A stretch of DNA of 35,499 nt from the NCBI GenBank assembly GCA_020432105.1, contig JAGQGZ010000008.1, forward strand, positions 1 to 35,499, given 5' to 3'. Below are positions 14,341 through 26,103 of the stretch, in pieces. The notes below the pieces were generated by a model. That model was not told the origin of the DNA, searched no databases, and saw only the letters and a program-made list of their open reading frames with translations. The stretch comes from Dehalococcoidia bacterium (GTDB taxonomy: Bacteria; Chloroflexota; Dehalococcoidia; Tepidiformales; Tepidiformaceae). A program made the position numbers and the translations under genes. The first letter of the stretch is position 1, and every line of letters begins with the position of its first letter.

Positions 14341-14466
14341 AGTCGTACTTTCGGCATAGGCAGCCGAATTCGGTAGCGTCACGGCTGCCAGATATTCATG
14401 AGGGGTTGGCTAAGCGCGCGATTCATTCGTAAATCCGAATTGACGCTACCCGAAACTGAGCGACAC

Positions 14467-14480
14467 TTACCGATCGGTAA
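14467..14480. promoter_or_regulatory. Perfect 14-bp palindrome, candidate operator upstream of the ABC lipoprotein gene
   Basis: TTACCGATCGGTAA is a perfect inverted repeat. It lies between a possible -35 (TTGACG, 14440-14445) and the strong ribosome-binding site AGGAGGT (14483-14489). No clean -10 is recognisable, but the palindrome would cover that zone or the early transcript. The symmetry resembles sites bound by dimeric repressors such as the TetR family; no such regulator is encoded in the window. Confidence 0.5.
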
Positions 14481-14499
14481 TCAGGAGGTACAGGAGCAC

Positions 14500-16176
14500 A
14501 TGCGAAAAACCAAGTGGTGGATGCTTTTCAGCATTCTCACCGTCTTTGCACTCACCTTTGCGGTGGCGTGTGGAGACGACGATGACGATGACGACACCGA
14601 CGGTGGGAATCCCACCGCCACCAGCGACGACGGCGACAACGGTGACAACGGCGACACCCAGGCGGGTGGCGAAATCACTGTCCAGATCACTGAGCCGGAA
14701 GGCCTTGACCCGCACTTCTCGGACTTCAGTGTCGATATCACCGTTATCCAGATGACCAACCGTGGTCTTTATGACCTGCTTCCCGGCGGCGAACTGCGGC
14801 CGGCGATGGCGGACGGTATGCCAGAGGTCTCGGACGATGGCCTGACGTACACCGTCAAGATCAAGGAAGGCCTCCAGTGGTCCGACGGTGAAACACTGGA
14901 CGCCAACGACTTCGTATTTGGTATTCAGAGGACCTGTGATCCGACGATTGCGGGCCACTACCAGTACATCCTCACGAACATCGCTGGTTGCGATGACTAC
15001 TACGGTGGCGAGGGCTCGGTCGACGATGTCGGCGTTGCCGCGACCGATAACAACACGTTCGTGATTACGCTCCACACCGCTCAGGCGACGTTCCCGTCGC
15101 TGCTGGCCCTGTGGCCGACGTATCCGGCACCCGATGAGGGCCTTGCGAGCGTCGATGCAGACTGGCCGGCACCGCCGGATTCGCCCTGCAGCGGTCCGTT
15201 CTGCCCGACGGAATGGGTCGCCGGCGACCACATCACGCTGGTGAAGAACGAGAACTACAGCCTCGGCGAGGCCAAGCTCGATAAGATCACGCTTCGCATC
15301 ATCGATGACCTTTCGGTGGCGCTGAATGCCTACGATGCTGGCGAGCTGGACATGATCCGGGTGAGCACGACAGACCTTCCCCAGGTCCGTGATCGCGACG
15401 ATTACCAGAACATCGCACTTCCCATCACCATCGGCCTCGAGCCGCTGATGACCGACCCCCTGTTGAAGGATCTCAATGTTCGCCTTGCGCTTTCGCGCGC
15501 GACCGACCGCGAGCTCCTGAACGAGGTCGTTGGTGAAGGCGCCAACATTCCGACGACGAACTGGGTGCCCGCTGAAGAGCCTGGTGCAAACGAAGCGGGT
15601 GCATTTGACGATGTCGTTGGCTTCGACGCAGAAGCCGCCAAGAAGCTACTCGCGGATGCTGGGTATCCGAATGGCGAAGGCTTCCCCGGCCTGACGATGT
15701 TGCTGACCGACAGCGAAGGCAACCGCGTCCTTGGTGAATTCCTGCAGGAGCAGTGGAAGCAGATCCTCGGCATCGAGCTGAGCATCGACTTCGTCGACGG
15801 CCAGACTCGCCAGGCACGCTTCAACAGCAGCGACTTCCAGCTGACGACCGGCGGATGGGGCCATGACTACCCCGATGCCGAGAACTGGCTGGTTGGCCTC
15901 TACGAGACAGGCGCTTCGATCAACAAGCAGAAGTGCAGCGACCCGGAGATCGACGCAGCCCTCGCCAAGGCGAAGGTTGAGACGGACAACGAGGCTCGCT
16001 GGGAAGAGCTGCGCAAAGCGGAGCGACGTATCGTCGAGACCGCCTGCGGCATGATGCCCCTGTACCACCGGGGCAACCACTACCTCATCAACGAGAAGCT
16101 GGTGGGGGTCACGCCCACGCTGGAGGACCATTACCTCCCGCAGTTCCCTGAGGACTGGGCGCTGGCAGCCGAGTAA
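14500..16176 (+). CDS. ABC transporter substrate-binding lipoprotein, peptide/nickel type (SBP_bac_5)
   Basis: A 558-residue extracytoplasmic solute-binding lipoprotein for a dipeptide/oligopeptide-type ABC importer. The signal peptide ends in a lipobox, FAVAC, with C24 as the lipidated residue. A striking acidic linker follows (seven Asp in a row, then Gly/Asp/Asn/Thr repeats to about residue 62), which probably holds the binding domain away from the membrane. The mature part is family 5: EITVQITEPEGLDPHF, YTVKIKEGLQWSDGE and GHDYPDAENWL are recognisable. ATG 14500 is set by AGGAGGT ten bases upstream and by the signal peptide. Codon choice looks more C-ending than in neighbouring genes, consistent with high expression. 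Two permeases follow after a terminator hairpin. Confidence 0.93.
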   Translation: MRKTKWWMLFSILTVFALTFAVACGDDDDDDDTDGGNPTATSDDGDNGDNGDTQAGGEITVQITEPEGLDPHFSDFSVDITVIQMTNRGLYDLLPGGELRPAMADGMPEVSDDGLTYTVKIKEGLQWSDGETLDANDFVFGIQRTCDPTIAGHYQYILTNIAGCDDYYGGEGSVDDVGVAATDNNTFVITLHTAQATFPSLLALWPTYPAPDEGLASVDADWPAPPDSPCSGPFCPTEWVAGDHITLVKNENYSLGEAKLDKITLRIIDDLSVALNAYDAGELDMIRVSTTDLPQVRDRDDYQNIALPITIGLEPLMTDPLLKDLNVRLALSRATDRELLNEVVGEGANIPTTNWVPAEEPGANEAGAFDDVVGFDAEAAKKLLADAGYPNGEGFPGLTMLLTDSEGNRVLGEFLQEQWKQILGIELSIDFVDGQTRQARFNSSDFQLTTGGWGHDYPDAENWLVGLYETGASINKQKCSDPEIDAALAKAKVETDNEARWEELRKAERRIVETACGMMPLYHRGNHYLINEKLVGVTPTLEDHYLPQFPEDWALAAE

Positions 16177-16192
16177 CACTTTCGGCAACGTT

Positions 16193-16226
16193 GGGGGCAG
16201 GGCACTCAGTCCTGCCCCCTTCTTTT
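16193..16226 (+). terminator. Rho-independent terminator or attenuator inside the ABC operon
   Basis: GGGGGCAGG (16193-16201) pairs perfectly with CCTGCCCCC (16211-16219) around a 9-nt loop, followed by TTCTTTTT. It sits between the binding-protein gene and the first permease gene and would let the lipoprotein be made in excess over the permeases. Confidence 0.85.
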
Positions 16227-16245
16227 TCCCGGTGGAGACCAGTGA

Positions 16246-17226
16246 ATGACCGGCTACATCGTACGGCGCACCCTGTGGATCATCCCGGTCCTGTGGGCAA
16301 TCGCCACGCTGACTTTCTTCCTTATGCACGCCGTCGAAGGTGGGCCTTTTGCTTCGGAGAAGCCGGTTCCGCCCCGCATTGAGGAAGCCCTCAACGCCAA
16401 GTACAACCTGGACAAGTCCCTGGGAGAGCAGTACGTGCTCTACTTCTGGGATCTCCTCCACCTTGATCTCGGGACATCGTTCAACGCGAACCAGATAACG
16501 GTGCGTGAACTGCTGGCCCAGGGACTTCCGATCTCGATCCAACTTGGGGTGGTTGCGTTCATTTACGCGGTGGTTGTGGGTGGCGCCCTCGGGGTTATCG
16601 CCGCGCTCAATCAGAACCGGGCAGGCGACTACCTTGGCGTGTTCTTCGCTACGATCGGCACAGCTATGCCGAACTTCATCATGGCCAGCTTTCTTGTGAT
16701 CATATTCTCGGTGAAGCTGGGGTGGTTCGCGGTACTCGGCTGGGGTGGGCCTGAGTGGGCACTGGATGACCCGACAACCTGGGCGCGCAATTTCAATCCC
16801 TTTGCGTGGGATTACACGCGAGTCGTGCTCCCGGTGGTAGCCCTGGGAACACTTGCGGCTTCATATATCGCGCGGATCACGCGTGCGAGCATGCTCGAGG
16901 TGCTGCAGCAAGACTATGTGCGGACGGCGCGGGCCAAGGGTTTGCAGGAGCGGCACGTGATTGCCCGCCACACGCTCAAGAACGCGATGGTGCCGATTCT
17001 CACGGTGTTGGGCCCGATCTTTGTCGCGCTCGTCACGGGTTCGTTTATCGTGGAGCGCATCTTTGCCATACCGGGGATTGGCCGTCACTTCGTCACGGCG
17101 ATCTTCACCCGCGACTACGGCGTAATCATGGGAGTAACGCTTTTCTACGCTTTGCTGGTGGCGGTGGCCAACCTGCTGATAGACATTTCTTACGCGGTGG
17201 TGGATCCGAGGATCAGGTACCACTAG
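16246..17226 (+). CDS. ABC transporter permease, DppB/OppB type
   Basis: A 326-residue inner-membrane subunit of a peptide/nickel-type ABC importer. It opens with RRTLWIIPVLWAIATLTFFLMHA (first membrane helix, positions 4-26) and has five further hydrophobic segments. The coupling (EAA) loop is in MLEVLQQDYVRTARAKGL followed by HTLKNAMVPILTVLG, which contacts the ATPase. ATG 16246 has GGTGGAG upstream. The next permease starts at the base directly after its stop. No ATP-binding subunit is encoded nearby, so the channel must borrow ATPases from another locus. Confidence 0.93.
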   Translation: MTGYIVRRTLWIIPVLWAIATLTFFLMHAVEGGPFASEKPVPPRIEEALNAKYNLDKSLGEQYVLYFWDLLHLDLGTSFNANQITVRELLAQGLPISIQLGVVAFIYAVVVGGALGVIAALNQNRAGDYLGVFFATIGTAMPNFIMASFLVIIFSVKLGWFAVLGWGGPEWALDDPTTWARNFNPFAWDYTRVVLPVVALGTLAASYIARITRASMLEVLQQDYVRTARAKGLQERHVIARHTLKNAMVPILTVLGPIFVALVTGSFIVERIFAIPGIGRHFVTAIFTRDYGVIMGVTLFYALLVAVANLLIDISYAVVDPRIRYH

Positions 17227-18165
17227 ATGGCTGAAGCAATTGCGGCGAACGAACGAGTGACCATCGCAGACATGAGTCCGCGACGGCACCGGGGGCTCTG
17301 GTCAAATGCGTTCCGGCGCCTGGCACGGAACCGACTGGCCCTCATTTCGATGGGCATCCTGCTTGCGATGATCGTCCTCGCGATACTCGGGAACTATGTG
17401 GACTGGGTACAGCGGTACGAGCCGAGTGCCCAGGACTACTCGGTTCGCAGGGCAGGCCCCAGCGCGGAACATTGGTTCGGTACCGACAGCCTGGGGAGGG
17501 ACAACTGGTCGAGGGTGCTGCAGGGGACATGGATTTCCCTGCGAGTTGGCCTGGGCGTGCAGGCTGTAGTGGTGGTCATCGGCGTGCTCATCGGCGGGAC
17601 CGCCGCGCTTGGTGGCCGCTGGCTGGACAACCTGATGATGCGCCTCACCGACCTTGCCTATGCCTTCCCCGACCTGCTCTTCATCATCCTGCTGAGTGCC
17701 ACGTTCCAGGGCAGGCAGGGAATGCCGATCATCGGTGATCCGCTGTTCCAAATGATCCTCGCCATCTCATTTGTCGCCTGGGTAACGATTGCGCGGCTGG
17801 TGCGGGGGCAGATGCTTGCGTTGTCGGAGCAGGACTTTGTCACCGCGGCGCGGGCAACCGGTCTCCCGGAATGGAGGATCGTATTCCAGCACATGCTGCC
17901 GAACGCTCTTGGCCCCTTGATTGTTGCAATCGTGTTCGGCATCCCGCTGGCGATCTTCGCGGAGGCAGTGCTGGGCTTTATCGGTATCGGTATGCCGCCA
18001 CCAACGGCGAGCCTCGGCGTGCTCGTCTCCAACGGCTACGACGAGATCCGGACGAATATCTGGTTGATCGTGTTCCCGGCGGGAACGATTGCGATCATGA
18101 TGCTTTGCTTCACGTTCCTCGGTGATGGTCTCCGAGACGCACTGGACCCGCGGGCCCGAGAGTAG
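17227..18165 (+). CDS. ABC transporter permease, DppC/OppC type
   Basis: A 312-residue second permease that pairs with the product of the preceding gene to form the membrane pore. It has the OppC-type N-terminal domain (FRRLARNRLALISMGILL), the family-typical HWFGTDSLGRDNWSRVL motif at about residues 79-95, and the EAA coupling loop at ALSEQDFVTAARATGLP followed by HMLPNALGPLIV. About six membrane helices are visible. The start directly abuts the stop of the DppB-type gene, so the two are co-translated. Substrate specificity is set by the lipoprotein upstream and cannot be named beyond peptide-like or similar small solutes. Confidence 0.93.
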   Translation: MAEAIAANERVTIADMSPRRHRGLWSNAFRRLARNRLALISMGILLAMIVLAILGNYVDWVQRYEPSAQDYSVRRAGPSAEHWFGTDSLGRDNWSRVLQGTWISLRVGLGVQAVVVVIGVLIGGTAALGGRWLDNLMMRLTDLAYAFPDLLFIILLSATFQGRQGMPIIGDPLFQMILAISFVAWVTIARLVRGQMLALSEQDFVTAARATGLPEWRIVFQHMLPNALGPLIVAIVFGIPLAIFAEAVLGFIGIGMPPPTASLGVLVSNGYDEIRTNIWLIVFPAGTIAIMMLCFTFLGDGLRDALDPRARE

Positions 18166-19935: not shown

Positions 19936-20025
19936 TTACCAGGGGGCGATGGGAGCGGCGCCGGCGAGAGCGACGGTAGCAAGTGCCATGAGGGCGACGA
20001 GTGCGGTGGCGAAACGAGTCTTCAT
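19936..20025 (-). CDS. 29-residue signal-peptide-like small ORF, candidate secreted peptide
   Basis: The frame reads MKTRFATALV at the start and AGAAPIAPW at the end, 29 residues in all. It has a positively charged N-terminus, a hydrophobic Ala/Leu/Val core of about 16 residues and an ALAGAA stretch that could be a signal-peptidase site, leaving only a few residues ending in Ile-Ala-Pro-Trp. A strong GGAGGA (20037-20042) lies 11 bases upstream of the ATG. It sits between the SARP/TPR regulator gene and the DUF5317 gene on the same strand, just below a direct repeat that may be a regulator site. It could be a short export signal that releases a peptide, a single-span membrane peptide, or a non-functional leader. 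No homologue is recognised. Confidence 0.55.
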   Translation of the reverse strand: MKTRFATALVALMALATVALAGAAPIAPW

Positions 20026-20083
20026 CTGTGTATCGATCCTCCAAGATCTGGCGGGGGCGTCGGGCGCCCGTCACGCAGGAGGA

Positions 20084-20119
20084 AACGTACCGGTGGGGTT
20101 CTCGCAAATCTCTCGCAAA
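20084..20119 (-). promoter_or_regulatory. Candidate SARP-type activator site and -10 box for the small peptide gene
   Basis: Two copies of TTTGCGAGA (minus strand; 20119-20111 and 20108-20100) repeat with a period of exactly 11 bp, one helical turn. Ten bases after the second copy comes TACGTT (20089-20084), a possible -10. SARP regulators are known to bind direct repeats spaced 11 bp lying just upstream of a -10 box, and the gene ending next to this site encodes a SARP-type protein. Direct binding is inference. Confidence 0.5.
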
Positions 20120-20131
20120 ACTGTGCGAGAG
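20110..20131 (-). terminator. Small hairpin after the SARP regulator stop codon
   Basis: CTCTCGCA (20110-20117) is complementary to TGCGAGAG (20124-20131) around a 6-nt loop, four bases beyond the regulator stop. One arm is part of the 11-bp repeat. With no clear T-run it may be a weak terminator or simply a third, inverted copy of the repeat. Confidence 0.35.
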
Positions 20132-20134
20132 GCC

Positions 20135-23100
20135 TTAGATCGCAACTCCAGCGGCGATCGAGGCACGCAGTTGCTGGAGACGCAGCGGGAGGCGTTGTCC
20201 CAACTCGCTGTCGACCCGGCGACCGTAGTCGTCGAGCGTGCCGATCGCTGCTATGGGGTTTCCGGCCTTTGCCCGGCTGAGCGCGAGCATGTGGACGGCT
20301 TCTTCGTTGAAGGGATTCGCGGTGAGGACCAGCTCAAGTTGTTCGGCGGCTCGCTCGTGGTCGCCCCGGGCGGCGTAGAAGCCGGCCAACGATGACAGGG
20401 TCTGGAGATTCTGGCGCTCGATACGATCGCGGATTGCATCGGCCCATTCGCCAAAGAACTCCGGGGCGAATGGACCGCGGTAAAGGCTCACTGCCCGTTC
20501 GTAGGCGGCGGCACGTTCGGGAGTACCACTGGCGTGACGCTGAGCGTTTTCGAGAGCCTGGGCGAACTGCTCGACATCCCACTCAATGGCGGCGGCCGGA
20601 TTCAGGCGGTAGATATTGTCCTCACGGACGATGACGTCGTAGAAGAGCGCTTTGCGCAGGCGATGGAGGTTGGAGTGAAACGTGCTGTTGCTCTTGGCCG
20701 GTGAGAGGTCGGGGGAGAGCGCGACCACGGCTTCTTCTTTGCGGATGCCCTGGGGATTGGCGAGGAAGAGGAAGAAGAGTTCTTTTGCCCTGGCCGTGGC
20801 CCAATTGGAGTCAGTGACCGGTTCGCCATTGAGTTCGACCACCAGTTGGCCGAGACTGCGAACGGCAATGCGCGGTAACGCGGAGGCGTCCTCGCCGGGT
20901 TCCGCAGAGGCTACCTGGTTAACTTCTGTACCGATTCCCTCGGCGAGTATGGGGCTAACGCCCTGCCGGGATGCAGCCCACTGGGCGAACATCGGGTTCT
21001 GGTGAATTGCGGGAGCAAGTGCTGCGAGCATCCATGCTTCAGTAACCGTTTCAGAGAGGCGTTGGAGGCAATCCTCGGCGCCCGCCCGGTCGCCGGCCGC
21101 GAACTTCACGAGCGCGAGACGGTAGAGAGCGATGCGGGCCGATATGGCCGAGTCTAGTTCTTCGAAGGTGGCAAGGGCCTCTGTTGCGAAACGCTCGGCA
21201 TTGAGGTGATCGCCGGAAGCTGAGTGAGTCGCTGCGAGCTGGAGCTGGCAGCTGGCGAGGTTGGGCCTGTTTGCCATGGCCTGGCCGAGCTCCAGGGCAC
21301 GATTGGCGAGGAAGTCAGCGTGACGAATCTCACCAGTACCGAGAGCACAGGCGGACAACCCGATCAACGAGAAGAGCGTAAGGGTAGGGTCGAGGACAAC
21401 CGCAGTCTGTTGAAGGGCCTCTTCGTAGAGCGCGCGTGCAGCGGCAGGATCGCCCTGTGCAAGCCGACAGTCCCCCATGGTGGCGACTGCGTAGGCCGCC
21501 ATCCGGGTGTCCTCGATGGCGATGGCCTCCTGGCGGGATTCATCAAGAACGGCAATCGCACTGACGAAGTCTCCGACGGTGATGTGGGCCAGGCCCAGGT
21601 TGTTGAGCGTCCAGGCGAGATTTCCGCGAGCTCCGGCCCGGCGCCAGCCACTGGCAGCACGGATGAGTTCATCAAGGGCAGCCGGGGCGTTGCCAAGGAG
21701 CAGAAGGAGATCACCCCGGGTGGAGCGAGCGAGGGTTGCGAGTTGTACGGCGCCGCACTCATCGGCTATTTCGTAGCAGGATTTGAGCAGCGCGTCGGCA
21801 CGGGCGTAGTCAGCAGTCCTGTGCACTGCATGCTGTGCCTGCTGAAAGTAGTAGTCGGCGACGAGGACTGGATCGGCGCCGATGACGGACTCCCTGGTCT
21901 CATCGAACAGCCGGGTGAGTTCAACGTCGCGGCCCAACGCCTTGAGGGCACGGATCTGGGCGAGGAGAGCGTGGAAGCGGGTCTCGGCAGGGACCGACTT
22001 CTTGCGAAGCAGGGCAGCTGCCTGCTCGAGTGCTGCTTCAGGGAACCCCGTATGCACCAGCACTCGCAAGCGCACGCCGTTCAGCGGAGACATCTGATCG
22101 ATGTTCACCGCACCGAGCGAATCGAAACTCAGCCGGAGAAGGGCGAAGGCCCCCTGGAGGAGGAGCACATTGGCATGCTCTTCGAGGACATGAACGAGAA
22201 GGTCCAGATCGTCCATGTCGATAGCGACAAGGATTGCGTCGGCGATGGCTCCCGATTCCATGAGGCGAGTGATGACGGCACGAGTCGCCTCCTCCGCGAG
22301 CCGGGGGTGGTCGGTGAGCAGTCGAGCCCGGAGGAAATGACGGAACGATTCGTTGAGGCGAACCGTGGACTCAGTGTTGTGATCGGAAAGGAAGCCGCGG
22401 GGGGCGAGCCACTGGCGGAGGCTCTGCCAGGCAGCGCGTCCGACGAGTGCGGTTGCCAGGCGGGTGTCTATGCTCGTGAGCACACTGAGGCGGAGCAACG
22501 GCTCTCGCAAGGGCTCGGGGACGTCGGCCCAGACCTCACGAGCGACAAAGCGTTCCCAGGCGCCCGGGGCGGTGAGGCTCGAAGCGTCGCCAAGGGGAAC
22601 CGTACCGGAGACGACCCCAGCCACGGCTATCGGCCAACCGCCGGTGGCCAGGTGTGCCGCCTCCACGTCGAAATCCCACCCTCGGGCAGTGGCGAGTTCT
22701 CGCGTTTCGGCCAGTGTGAAGGCAAGGTCTTCCGGCCCGATGAAGAGACATTCCCCACCGGTAACGCGGCGGTCGATCTCGGTGAGCGGAAGTCCTTCGC
22801 GGCCAATGAGGACGACTTCACTTTCGGGGGGAAGGGATTCGAACAGCCAGCCGAGAAGTTCGCTCGATTCCACCGCCCGGGAAAGAGCCTGGGTGTTGTC
22901 GACGACGAGGAGGAGGGGGCGCGGATCACGTTCGCTGCATTCGTCGATGGCAACGGAAAGGTAGGCGCGAAGCTGCTGGCCCGTATCAGCCTGGGGCTGG
23001 ACACCGGCCGAGGGTCCCGCAAGTGCCCGGGCGAGTGCTACTGCCAGCACTTCTGGAACGGTTGATGAAGCGTCGAGGGAAACCCATGCGACCTTGAAAT

Positions 23101-23251
23101 CGACTTCGCCGGCAAACGACTCGACGAGGGTGGACTTGCCGAAGCCGGCGGGCGCCTGAATCACGGTGAGGCCGCCGCCGACAGCGGCATGAAGCCTATC
23201 GAGCAGGCGAGGCCGACGGAGTATGGCCGGAGCGGTTTGGAGAGCACTCAT
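20135..23251 (-). CDS. STAND-type ATPase regulator with TPR region and C-terminal SARP/BTAD domain
   Basis: A 1038-residue MalT-like signalling ATPase. The nucleotide-binding domain has Walker A IQAPAGFGKST (K39) and Walker B PLLLVVDN. A long helical region (about residues 350-770) carries TPR-like repeats, for example NLAWTLNNLGLAHITVGDF and ALYEEALQQTAVV. From about residue 794 comes an OmpR-like winged helix (RSLGQLVVELNGEPV, RAKELFFLFLANP, NLHRLRKALF) and then a bacterial transcriptional activation domain (about 892-1035, FAPEFFGEWADAIRDR, ending ELGQRLPLRLQQLR). So the SARP module sits at the C-terminus, after the sensor, rather than at the N-terminus as in AfsR. Such proteins activate transcription when a ligand or partner relieves the STAND switch. 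The inducer is unknown; a tiny secreted-type peptide is encoded just downstream. Confidence 0.92.
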   Translation of the reverse strand: MSALQTAPAILRRPRLLDRLHAAVGGGLTVIQAPAGFGKSTLVESFAGEVDFKVAWVSLDASSTVPEVLAVALARALAGPSAGVQPQADTGQQLRAYLSVAIDECSERDPRPLLLVVDNTQALSRAVESSELLGWLFESLPPESEVVLIGREGLPLTEIDRRVTGGECLFIGPEDLAFTLAETRELATARGWDFDVEAAHLATGGWPIAVAGVVSGTVPLGDASSLTAPGAWERFVAREVWADVPEPLREPLLRLSVLTSIDTRLATALVGRAAWQSLRQWLAPRGFLSDHNTESTVRLNESFRHFLRARLLTDHPRLAEEATRAVITRLMESGAIADAILVAIDMDDLDLLVHVLEEHANVLLLQGAFALLRLSFDSLGAVNIDQMSPLNGVRLRVLVHTGFPEAALEQAAALLRKKSVPAETRFHALLAQIRALKALGRDVELTRLFDETRESVIGADPVLVADYYFQQAQHAVHRTADYARADALLKSCYEIADECGAVQLATLARSTRGDLLLLLGNAPAALDELIRAASGWRRAGARGNLAWTLNNLGLAHITVGDFVSAIAVLDESRQEAIAIEDTRMAAYAVATMGDCRLAQGDPAAARALYEEALQQTAVVLDPTLTLFSLIGLSACALGTGEIRHADFLANRALELGQAMANRPNLASCQLQLAATHSASGDHLNAERFATEALATFEELDSAISARIALYRLALVKFAAGDRAGAEDCLQRLSETVTEAWMLAALAPAIHQNPMFAQWAASRQGVSPILAEGIGTEVNQVASAEPGEDASALPRIAVRSLGQLVVELNGEPVTDSNWATARAKELFFLFLANPQGIRKEEAVVALSPDLSPAKSNSTFHSNLHRLRKALFYDVIVREDNIYRLNPAAAIEWDVEQFAQALENAQRHASGTPERAAAYERAVSLYRGPFAPEFFGEWADAIRDRIERQNLQTLSSLAGFYAARGDHERAAEQLELVLTANPFNEEAVHMLALSRAKAGNPIAAIGTLDDYGRRVDSELGQRLPLRLQQLRASIAAGVAI

Positions 23252-24867: not shown

Positions 24868-26103
24868 ATGACCGACCGCGTCCTTCTCCTGATCCCGAAT
24901 CGGAGTTACCGCACCCATGACTTCATGGAGGCGGCAACACAACTCGGAATCGAGGTGGTGGTGGGCACGGACCGTAGCAGTCCCCTTGGCGGAGGTCCTT
25001 CCGGTCGCCAGGTTTCGTTCGACTTTCATGACCTGGATCGGGGAGTCGAACAGGTGGAGAGCTACGCCTCGAAGTACCCGGTAGGCACAATCGTGGCCGT
25101 GGACGATGCGGGAACCCGGTTGGCGGCCCATGCATCGCGACGGTTGGAGCTCCCACACAATCCCGTGGGGGCAGTGGAGGCGACACGAGACAAGTCGCTG
25201 CTGCGACAACGACTTGCGGCTGCGGGCGTTCCGTCGCCACGTTTTGCGATCGTGGGGCGGAACGATGACCTCATGAAAGTCGCCAGGGGTATCCCCTACC
25301 CGGCGGTGCTGAAGCCGCTTTCGATGTCGGCCAGCCGGGGAGTGATCCGCGTAAACAACGCTGAGGAATTCATCGCCGCGTTTCGGCGAATCGAAGAGAT
25401 TCTCGATGACCCGGAATACAGCCTGGAGTGCCCGGGCTTCACCGACCGGGTGCTGGTGGAAGAGTATCTGCCGGGCTACGAGGTTTCGGTGGAAGGCGTG
25501 CTCGCCGATCACCGGCTTGAGGTGCTGGCTATCTTCGACAAGCCGGACCCTCTGGAAGGCCCGTTCTTCGAAGAGACGATTTATGTCACTCCGTCGCGGC
25601 ATTCTGAAGCAGACATCGAGCAGGTAGTGGCGACTTCGGAAGCGGCGGTTAGGGCGCTCGGCCTGGAGGCGGGTCCGGTGCACATCGAACTGCGAGTGAG
25701 TGATGCGGGCGTTTACCCGATCGATGTGGCGGCCCGCTCAATCGGTGGCCTGTGTTCGCGGACCCTATCGTTTGGAACCGGGATGTCGTTGGAAGAGTTG
25801 CTGCTCCGCTGTGCGACGGGCAAGGAAGTGCCGAGCTATCACCGTGAAATGCGGGCAGCCGGGGTCATGATGATTCCCATACTCAGGGCTGGAGTGTTGC
25901 GATCGGTGACTGGTAGGAAGGAGGCGGAGACGGTCTCGCTGGTCGAATCAGTGACGATTTCGATTCCGGCAGGCGAGGAAGTAGTGCCGCTGCCGGAAGG
26001 AAATGAATACCTCGGCTTCATCTTCGCGAAAGGCGAGACCCCCGCAGAGGTCGAGGAGGCGCTTCGGGAGAGCCACCGGCATCTGACATTCACTATCGAG
26101 TAG
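24868..26103 (+). CDS. ATP-grasp carboxylate-amine ligase-like protein
   Basis: A 411-residue ATP-grasp enzyme, which would activate a carboxylate as acyl-phosphate and join it to an amine or similar nucleophile. The pre-ATP-grasp Rossmann-like part is residues about 1-100 (RVLLLIPNRSYRTHDF). The ATP-binding core includes YPAVLKPLSMSASRGVIRV, VLVEEYLPGYEVSVEGVL, and PVHIELRVSDAGVYPIDVAARSIGG as the metal-binding C-terminal segment. The final 80 residues form a BacD/PurK-like tail (GVMMIPILRAGVLRSVTG). The substrate is not identifiable; amino-acid ligases and biotin-carboxylase-like enzymes share this layout. The ATG follows a -10-like TAGACT by six bases. It ends three bases from the stop of nfuA on the other strand. 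Confidence 0.82.
   Translation: MTDRVLLLIPNRSYRTHDFMEAATQLGIEVVVGTDRSSPLGGGPSGRQVSFDFHDLDRGVEQVESYASKYPVGTIVAVDDAGTRLAAHASRRLELPHNPVGAVEATRDKSLLRQRLAAAGVPSPRFAIVGRNDDLMKVARGIPYPAVLKPLSMSASRGVIRVNNAEEFIAAFRRIEEILDDPEYSLECPGFTDRVLVEEYLPGYEVSVEGVLADHRLEVLAIFDKPDPLEGPFFEETIYVTPSRHSEADIEQVVATSEAAVRALGLEAGPVHIELRVSDAGVYPIDVAARSIGGLCSRTLSFGTGMSLEELLLRCATGKEVPSYHREMRAAGVMMIPILRAGVLRSVTGRKEAETVSLVESVTISIPAGEEVVPLPEGNEYLGFIFAKGETPAEVEEALRESHRHLTFTIE

Follow-up and report, generated by a model that had tools for sequence, protein, structure and literature searches.

We describe here a locus of a Dehalococcoidia bacterium (Chloroflexota; Tepidiformaceae) in which a regulator resembling AfsR of Streptomyces appears to turn on the synthesis of an exported micro-peptide together with its membrane partner, a protein of the DUF5317 family, a reading to which we assign a probability of roughly 55%. 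The locus lies in a stretch of 35,499 nucleotides (GenBank assembly GCA_020432105.1, contig JAGQGZ010000008.1, positions 1 to 35,499), hereafter termed the window, where the minus strand carries in order a regulator built of STAND ATPase, TPR and SARP parts, an open reading frame (ORF) of 29 residues, the DUF5317 gene and a histidine kinase gene, with a gap of 109 nucleotides separating the regulator gene from the small ORF. An earlier note on this DNA had delimited and read these four genes correctly, as was established by re-reading the sequence and by Pfam scans, and the strong ribosome-binding site that it had described is present as GGAGG, 12 nucleotides before the ATG of the small ORF. 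Collectively, the findings presented below point to a small-peptide system of the Chloroflexota that has not been described before and that has look-alikes in other phyla; a literature search returned nothing relevant on peptide quorum sensing in Chloroflexi.

Judged by its conservation, the 29-residue ORF is a real gene. Persistence of the small ORF in relatives had been chosen beforehand, in the earlier note, as the point on which its proposal should stand or fall, and the ORF proved to be kept in place across the Chloroflexota: wherever the SARP regulator gene stands directly upstream of DUF5317, as it does at 91 distinct loci, a hydrophobic ORF of 24-62 residues lies in between (91/91; a ribosome-binding site was not demanded of it in this count). 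These loci range from the window's class to the Anaerolineae, including Bellilinea and Leptolinea, and the intervening peptides mostly end in [GA]AP followed by a short tail. Readable loci of the window's family hold ORFs of 28-29 residues of the same make at the same position, e.g. MTRRLVTLAISVSALAVIALAGAAPYQSW, MTRFISTLVAVSSLAIIALAGAAPFQSW and MKVRIITAAVSVSSLLVLALAGAAPIMHY. Anaerolineae peptides resemble MKNKLNLLVLSASKINRQHIQLFFVLLSLTMLVLGAGAPEDGGGTSR, that of Bellilinea caldifistulae being MKKINSRVVLFVLTVALYVLGSGAPEAGGGIINSIINFPGW, and in this group the stop codon of the peptide frequently overlaps or abuts the start of DUF5317.

Codon comparisons among 21 family peptides, which were pooled over related sequences and hence are not independent, gave a ratio of nonsynonymous to synonymous differences (pN/pS) of 0.032 for the AGAAP block (pS 0.60), indicative of strong purifying selection, as against 0.51 for the whole peptide and 0.98 for its last four residues. 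Five positions, Arg(-26), Leu(-15), Gly(-8), Ala(-6) and Pro(-5), do not vary among these 21 peptides, 20 of which end in Trp or Tyr. The conserved parts of the peptide are thus the AGAAP block and the hydrophobic core. Conservation of the C-terminal residues, which the earlier note had raised as a check, therefore holds for the AGAAP block and fails for the last four positions, whose sequences are alike within genera and unlike between them (PIAPW, PYQSW, PFQSW, PIMHY). By rule, the window peptide displays a basic n-region, a hydrophobic core and two overlapping AxA sites, and AxA-like sites are found in most of the peptides. Tandem copies occur at six loci (L094, L103, L178, L213, L222 and L238) and are identical or nearly so at four of these (L094, L178, L213 and L222); the full copies each possess their own ribosome-binding site, and spacing is variable. 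At L213, several near-identical micro-peptide ORFs stand in tandem upstream of DUF5317.

The peptides keep company with DUF5317 even more widely than with the regulator. We compiled 142 distinct DUF5317 loci from whole-phylum Chloroflexota genome regions and a scan of the collection with a DUF5317 alignment, a set outside which the Firmicutes, Thermotoga and Thermus loci lay, and applied a strict filter for hydrophobic small ORFs led by a ribosome-binding site and bearing a C-terminal small-Ala motif. Such ORFs were found on the DUF5317 strand near 102 of the 142 loci and on the opposite strand near none (0/142), and their density on the DUF5317 strand was 111 per 421 kb near the gene vs 2 per 704 kb far from it. 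On these sequence counts, the association of peptide and DUF5317 is far above chance, and the filtered count is itself too low because several of the 40 seemingly empty loci (e.g. L039, L041, L044 and L051) do hold a peptide. Other DUF5317 genes adjoin genes for HD-GYP, GGDEF-EAL or kinase proteins, and where the SARP is missing a similarly built small ORF is often found, either ahead of the partner gene or behind DUF5317 (downstream at L108 and L127). Examples include MKWATLKMKVIYGLMVIASLVMAAGADSRWA, present twice in L094, MKWGSKVTASAVSIAAIVLSILANFKWH in the Caldiserica-labelled L231, a peptide ending MVLVANNKWTG in the Spirochaetaceae-labelled L229 with a variant in L232, and MNKWGVYVVRLALALSTLASLLVAGGAGGKWG in a group of genomes that includes an Armatimonadetes-labelled record, all such labels being those of public records of metagenome-assembled genomes. 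Peptides in these other phyla and contexts often end in KW(G). Within the Armatimonadetes-labelled group, peptides accompany 5 of 17 DUF5317 loci, namely those with the better DUF5317 scores, and none lies on the opposite strand. The pairing of peptide and SARP claimed in the earlier note is borne out as adjacency, while the steady partner seems, from these gene neighbourhoods, to be DUF5317 rather than the SARP, a statement that does not extend to every DUF5317 locus.

A second line of evidence comes from the intervening DNA. All 20 family loci examined have two 9-mers with an 11-bp period ahead of the peptide (consensus TCGCGAGAA), and a TANNNT element follows exactly 9 bp past the second of them; the window version reads TTGCGAGAG-AT-TTGCGAGAA-CCCCACCGG-TACGTT (20118-20084), with 73 nucleotides from the end of the box to the start codon. 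Repeats that are spaced by 11 or 22 bp and overlap the -35 region are known targets of SARPs, and it is through such repeats that AfsR switches on afsS, a small gene under its control (PMC10936776; PMC5930380). A scan for sigma-70 consensus promoters found none, as is expected of a SARP-type promoter, which lacks a consensus -35. When up to three mismatches were allowed, the window box was the sole match within the window (0 expected in shuffles), and its own variant occurs once in the whole genome of origin. At the same threshold the consensus box matches 17 of the 38 family genomes, behind the SARP gene or before the peptide, with one of the 17 (G003) carrying it behind a SARP gene on a contig apart from DUF5317 where the peptide was not seen; none was detected in the 15 family genomes without a SARP, and a reversed-pattern control gave 0 matches in the family genomes. 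In G016, where the SARP gene has been rearranged to a convergent position, the box remains with the peptide. In 18 of 19 Anaerolineae genomes a different repeat takes this place, TTTTGAAGCCTG twice at a 12-bp period, and in most loci it sits behind a terminator-like hairpin that follows the SARP gene.

Further SARP-type boxes were encountered elsewhere. Family genome G001 has two, ahead of the genes for a NarL-type response regulator and for a WYL-type regulator (L246 and L260), and in some Anaerolineae others are near HU-like, LuxR, HD-GYP and giant secreted RHS-repeat genes. Secondary boxes precede genes for secreted RHS-repeat/SpvB-domain proteins of 4067 and 2348 residues in L292 (277-12480) and L293 (8618-15664, minus strand), respectively, and these could possibly be output genes.

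The genes are also distributed together. DUF5317 is present in 23 of the 38 family genomes, a SARP orthologue (>500 bits) is found in exactly those 23, both are absent from the other 15, and the system is present as a single chromosomal copy. Together, the SARP-type promoter at the peptide and this perfect co-occurrence strengthen the functional link between SARP and peptide that the earlier note had proposed, although any feedback of the peptide on the SARP stays speculative. From sequence, we strongly infer that the SARP activates the peptide-DUF5317 operon.

The regulator itself is recognizable in sequence and in predicted structure. A Pfam scan identified BTAD (55 bits), TPR_12 (76 bits) and AAA_22, while NCBIfam models matched MalT over residues 7-394 and the AfsR SARP region over residues 825-1031, both under the whole-protein cut-offs; among PDB sequences the protein retrieved MalT (8bob, E 1.3e-71) and AfsR (8jke/8k60). 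Foldseek searches with an AlphaFold2 model (pLDDT 84.9) returned the STAND-TPR structure 6mfv, MalT 8bob, AfsR 8hvr/8k60 and Rap 4gyo. The combination of winged-helix and BTAD domains that marks the SARP class is evident from the BTAD match and from the likeness of the output domain to the AfsR SARP fold (8hvr, TMt 0.80). The TPR region resembles that of the peptide-binding Rap 4gyo (TMt 0.77) and also many non-bacterial TPRs, TPR folds being generic.

DUF5317 is a conserved membrane protein. The window protein belongs clearly to PF17248 (gathering cut-off 25 bits), and an alignment of 59 sequences shows G91, N95, G104, M106, P107, L149, D151, S166, G168, D169 and G175 to be invariant (Bellilinea numbering). 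An AlphaFold2 model of an orthologue (pLDDT 92.6) has five helices long enough to be transmembrane (TM) segments, and the positive-inside rule predicts an outside N-terminus and an outside position for the conserved TM4-TM5 loop, which bears a G-x-MP motif and two Asp residues, all of them invariant. Foldseek found no fold match for this model in the PDB or BFVD. The family is present in 119 of 400 sampled Chloroflexota genomes and in other phyla, among them Thermotoga and Thermus; a scan of genome contigs with the window DUF5317 as a single protein gave no match, and a literature search gave no mention of DUF5317 and nothing relevant for TM0504 or STAND/BTAD. The invariant Asp pair, 18 residues apart with the second in F-S-x-G-D-x-x-I, recalls the signal peptidase II LspA (F-N-x-A-D-x-x-I). 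However, DUF5317 lacks profile or fold similarity to LspA (hhalign E 0.17, probability 0.4%; no Foldseek match at E<1) and its helix order differs, and a relationship with LspA was rejected; DUF5317 could yet have a convergent or an unrelated catalytic role. No LspA (PF01252) match was found in the window's genome, whose assembly is 81% complete, while 33 of 38 sampled genomes have one. N-terminal fusions of DUF5317 to MFS exporters, evident or probable, occur in several Chloroflexota (L120, L123-L126; Pfam MFS on L123, L124 and L126). In Anaerolineae, the gene after DUF5317 encodes a protein of 70-100 residues resembling the Os1348 NHLP-clan family of ribosomally synthesized and post-translationally modified peptides (NF038399; above the cut-off in L220 6602-6818, below it in L161 6579-6882, L092 5518-5794 and L226 6530-6764), and this is often followed by a (PAS-)GAF-HD-GYP gene.

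From these elements a sequence of events can be proposed. As the promoter anatomy strongly suggests, the SARP, acting as an AfsR/MalT-like STAND switch, would bind the 11-bp direct repeats over the -35 and activate the peptide-DUF5317 operon, here including the histidine kinase gene, as AfsR does afsS. The 29-residue product would be inserted via Sec by means of its basic n-region and hydrophobic core, with the AGAAP block and the four-residue tail ending up outside the membrane; more speculatively, cutting there at one or other of the overlapping AxA sites would free GAAPIAPW or APIAPW. The peptide would be cut, held or sensed at the conserved TM4-TM5 loop of DUF5317. Finally, and again speculatively, the level of the peptide or the state of the peptide-DUF5317 pair might feed back on the SARP or the kinase to yield an autoinducing signal of density or envelope state. 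More tentatively still, at somewhat less than even odds, we suggest that DUF5317 and the signal-like peptide constitute a new envelope peptide-signalling pair of several phyla, with the SARP as output in Chloroflexota and HD-GYP, GGDEF-EAL or histidine kinase proteins elsewhere, in which DUF5317 would be a processing enzyme or a receptor of new fold.

Several points weigh against peptide export under AfsR-like control as set out above. Secretion, cleavage and binding are all putative; the signal-like core is conserved as well, which an ordinary cleaved signal peptide would not need; no conserved importer adjoins the locus, the oligopeptide permease (Opp) genes of the window being absent from the loci of relatives; and boxes outside the peptide operon are scarce, leaving few outputs beyond it. 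Moreover, sensing need not fall to the SARP, as DUF5317 has such peptides beside it even at loci that lack a SARP.

Conservation of the core favours a peptide that stays unreleased and either spans the membrane once as a mini-subunit of DUF5317 or acts as an effector in the envelope, with the SARP as a stress or nutrient sensor that switches the pair on. The conserved small-residue packing motif, the overlapping or abutting genes of the Anaerolineae and the persistence of the DUF5317 association across regulator types all fit such a subunit, and yet the fast drift of the last four residues does not, most peptides have AxA-like sites, and the identical or near-identical tandem copies suit a dosage-dependent released product better, such that we regard this alternative as unlikely while deserving serious weight. 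Less probable still is an import loop of the RRNPP kind, in which the secreted tail would re-enter the cell through an oligopeptide permease and bind to the TPR superhelix of the SARP. The Rap-like superhelix, the adjacency of peptide gene and TPR regulator, and tails shared within and differing between genera are what such a loop would lead one to expect; however, no permease is kept at the locus, the same type of peptide occurs beside HD-GYP genes with no TPR regulator, and the constant presence of DUF5317 is left unexplained.

Tandem copies, and peptides positioned before HD-GYP genes or after DUF5317, argue for a role exerted in trans by the product. The same arrangements, with the individual ribosome-binding sites of the copies and the variable spacing, make it very improbable that the peptide is a cis-acting leader or arrest peptide governing DUF5317 translation, even though the short ORF immediately precedes DUF5317, the two genes abutting in Anaerolineae, and the conserved Pro and terminal Trp/Tyr of the window's family recall arrest motifs. 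That the small peptide is antimicrobial or acts on membranes, with DUF5317 conferring immunity or serving its export, would be in keeping with the MFS fusions of some genomes and the boxes ahead of secreted RHS-repeat proteins in two Anaerolineae, but it is equally improbable given a wide occurrence, single chromosomal copy and slow AGAAP evolution that are unlike bacteriocins and a proximity of DUF5317 to cyclic di-GMP enzymes that suggests signalling.

Table 1. Features of the peptide-DUF5317 locus, with positions numbered along the window
Feature	Position	Strand	Basis
Regulator, 1038 aa: MalT-type STAND ATPase, TPR superhelix, SARP (winged helix-BTAD) at the C-terminus	20135..23251	-	Pfam, NCBIfam, PDB sequence matches, AlphaFold2/Foldseek
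Candidate SARP-type operator TTGCGAGAG-AT-TTGCGAGAA, two 9-mers, 11-bp period	20099..20118	-	element also in 20/20 family loci
-10-like element TACGTT, 9 bp past second repeat	20084..20089	-	TANNNT, same offset in 20/20 family loci
Ribosome-binding site GGAGG	20038..20042	-	sequence; 12 nt ahead of ATG of 29-aa ORF
Signal-like micro-peptide MKTRFATALVALMALATVALAGAAPIAPW, 29 aa	19936..20025	-	conserved orthologues; AGAAP pN/pS 0.032
DUF5317 membrane protein, 192 aa	19321..19899	-	PF17248 63 bits; 59-sequence alignment; AlphaFold2 of orthologue
PAS-HisKA-HATPase histidine kinase, no evident membrane segment	18221..19324	-	weak PAS, weak HisKA, clear HATPase_c

The remaining genes of the neighbourhood are less constant. 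The kinase gene starts 4 nucleotides inside the end of DUF5317 (19324 vs 19321), and the earlier note had counted both among the genes completing the locus; DUF5317 is indeed constant, whereas a kinase orthologue adjoins it only in the window and two relatives (L037 and L038), and the kinase was rejected as a core component, though HD-GYP and kinase neighbours recur elsewhere. An Opp-type substrate-binding protein and two permease genes (14398-18165) converge on the locus; the transporter was considered as a peptide importer and rejected, as it is missing from the loci of relatives, and its presence nearby is incidental. Divergent from the SARP gene, an ATP-grasp protein with an L-amino-acid-ligase C-terminal domain (24868-26103) is encoded beside an acetyl-CoA hydrolase/transferase-like gene; the ATP-grasp gene is not kept at the locus in relatives.

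The locus is a concrete system that is open to test: its promoter box is named, its short peptide could yield either of two candidate cleavage products, and its conserved membrane partner has a fold for which no match was found. It also provides a first functional handle on DUF5317, a family of unknown function, and orthologues exist in isolated strains, Bellilinea caldifistulae and Leptolinea among them.

Among known systems, peptide communication through TPR regulators (RRNPP) is familiar from Firmicutes. The RRNPP/RRNPPA systems (Rap-Phr, PlcR-PapR, NprR-NprX) share with the present locus a TPR regulator, here of Rap-like TPR fold, adjoining a small export-signal-like ORF, and are defined by a propeptide of 10-100 residues, Sec export, a receptor of 250-500 residues with peptide-binding TPRs, and adjacent genes (PMC10075063). 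The propeptide size (29 residues) and the gene adjacency (91/91 loci) conform, but the 1038-residue STAND-SARP protein far exceeds the receptor range (PMC10075063), and the locus is therefore not a member, consistent with the earlier note, which had placed the regulator in another class; DUF5317, moreover, accompanies the peptide throughout as a third partner. MalT-type STAND regulators have a matching N-terminal ATPase and a TPR-like sensor region, and differ in that a SARP output replaces the LuxR helix-turn-helix and the target is the peptide operon. The small product, a signal-like hydrophobic peptide, is unlike AfsS. The closest parallel in layout nevertheless appears to be AfsR-AfsS of Streptomyces, which likewise combines a STAND/NOD, TPR and SARP regulator with two direct repeats spaced by 11 bp, forming a 22-bp box that covers the -35 region of a small gene next to it (PMC10936776), the SARP domain being C-terminal here and N-terminal in AfsR and DUF5317 being added here. 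The system is thus AfsR-AfsS-like in its layout and might be RRNPP-like in its logic.

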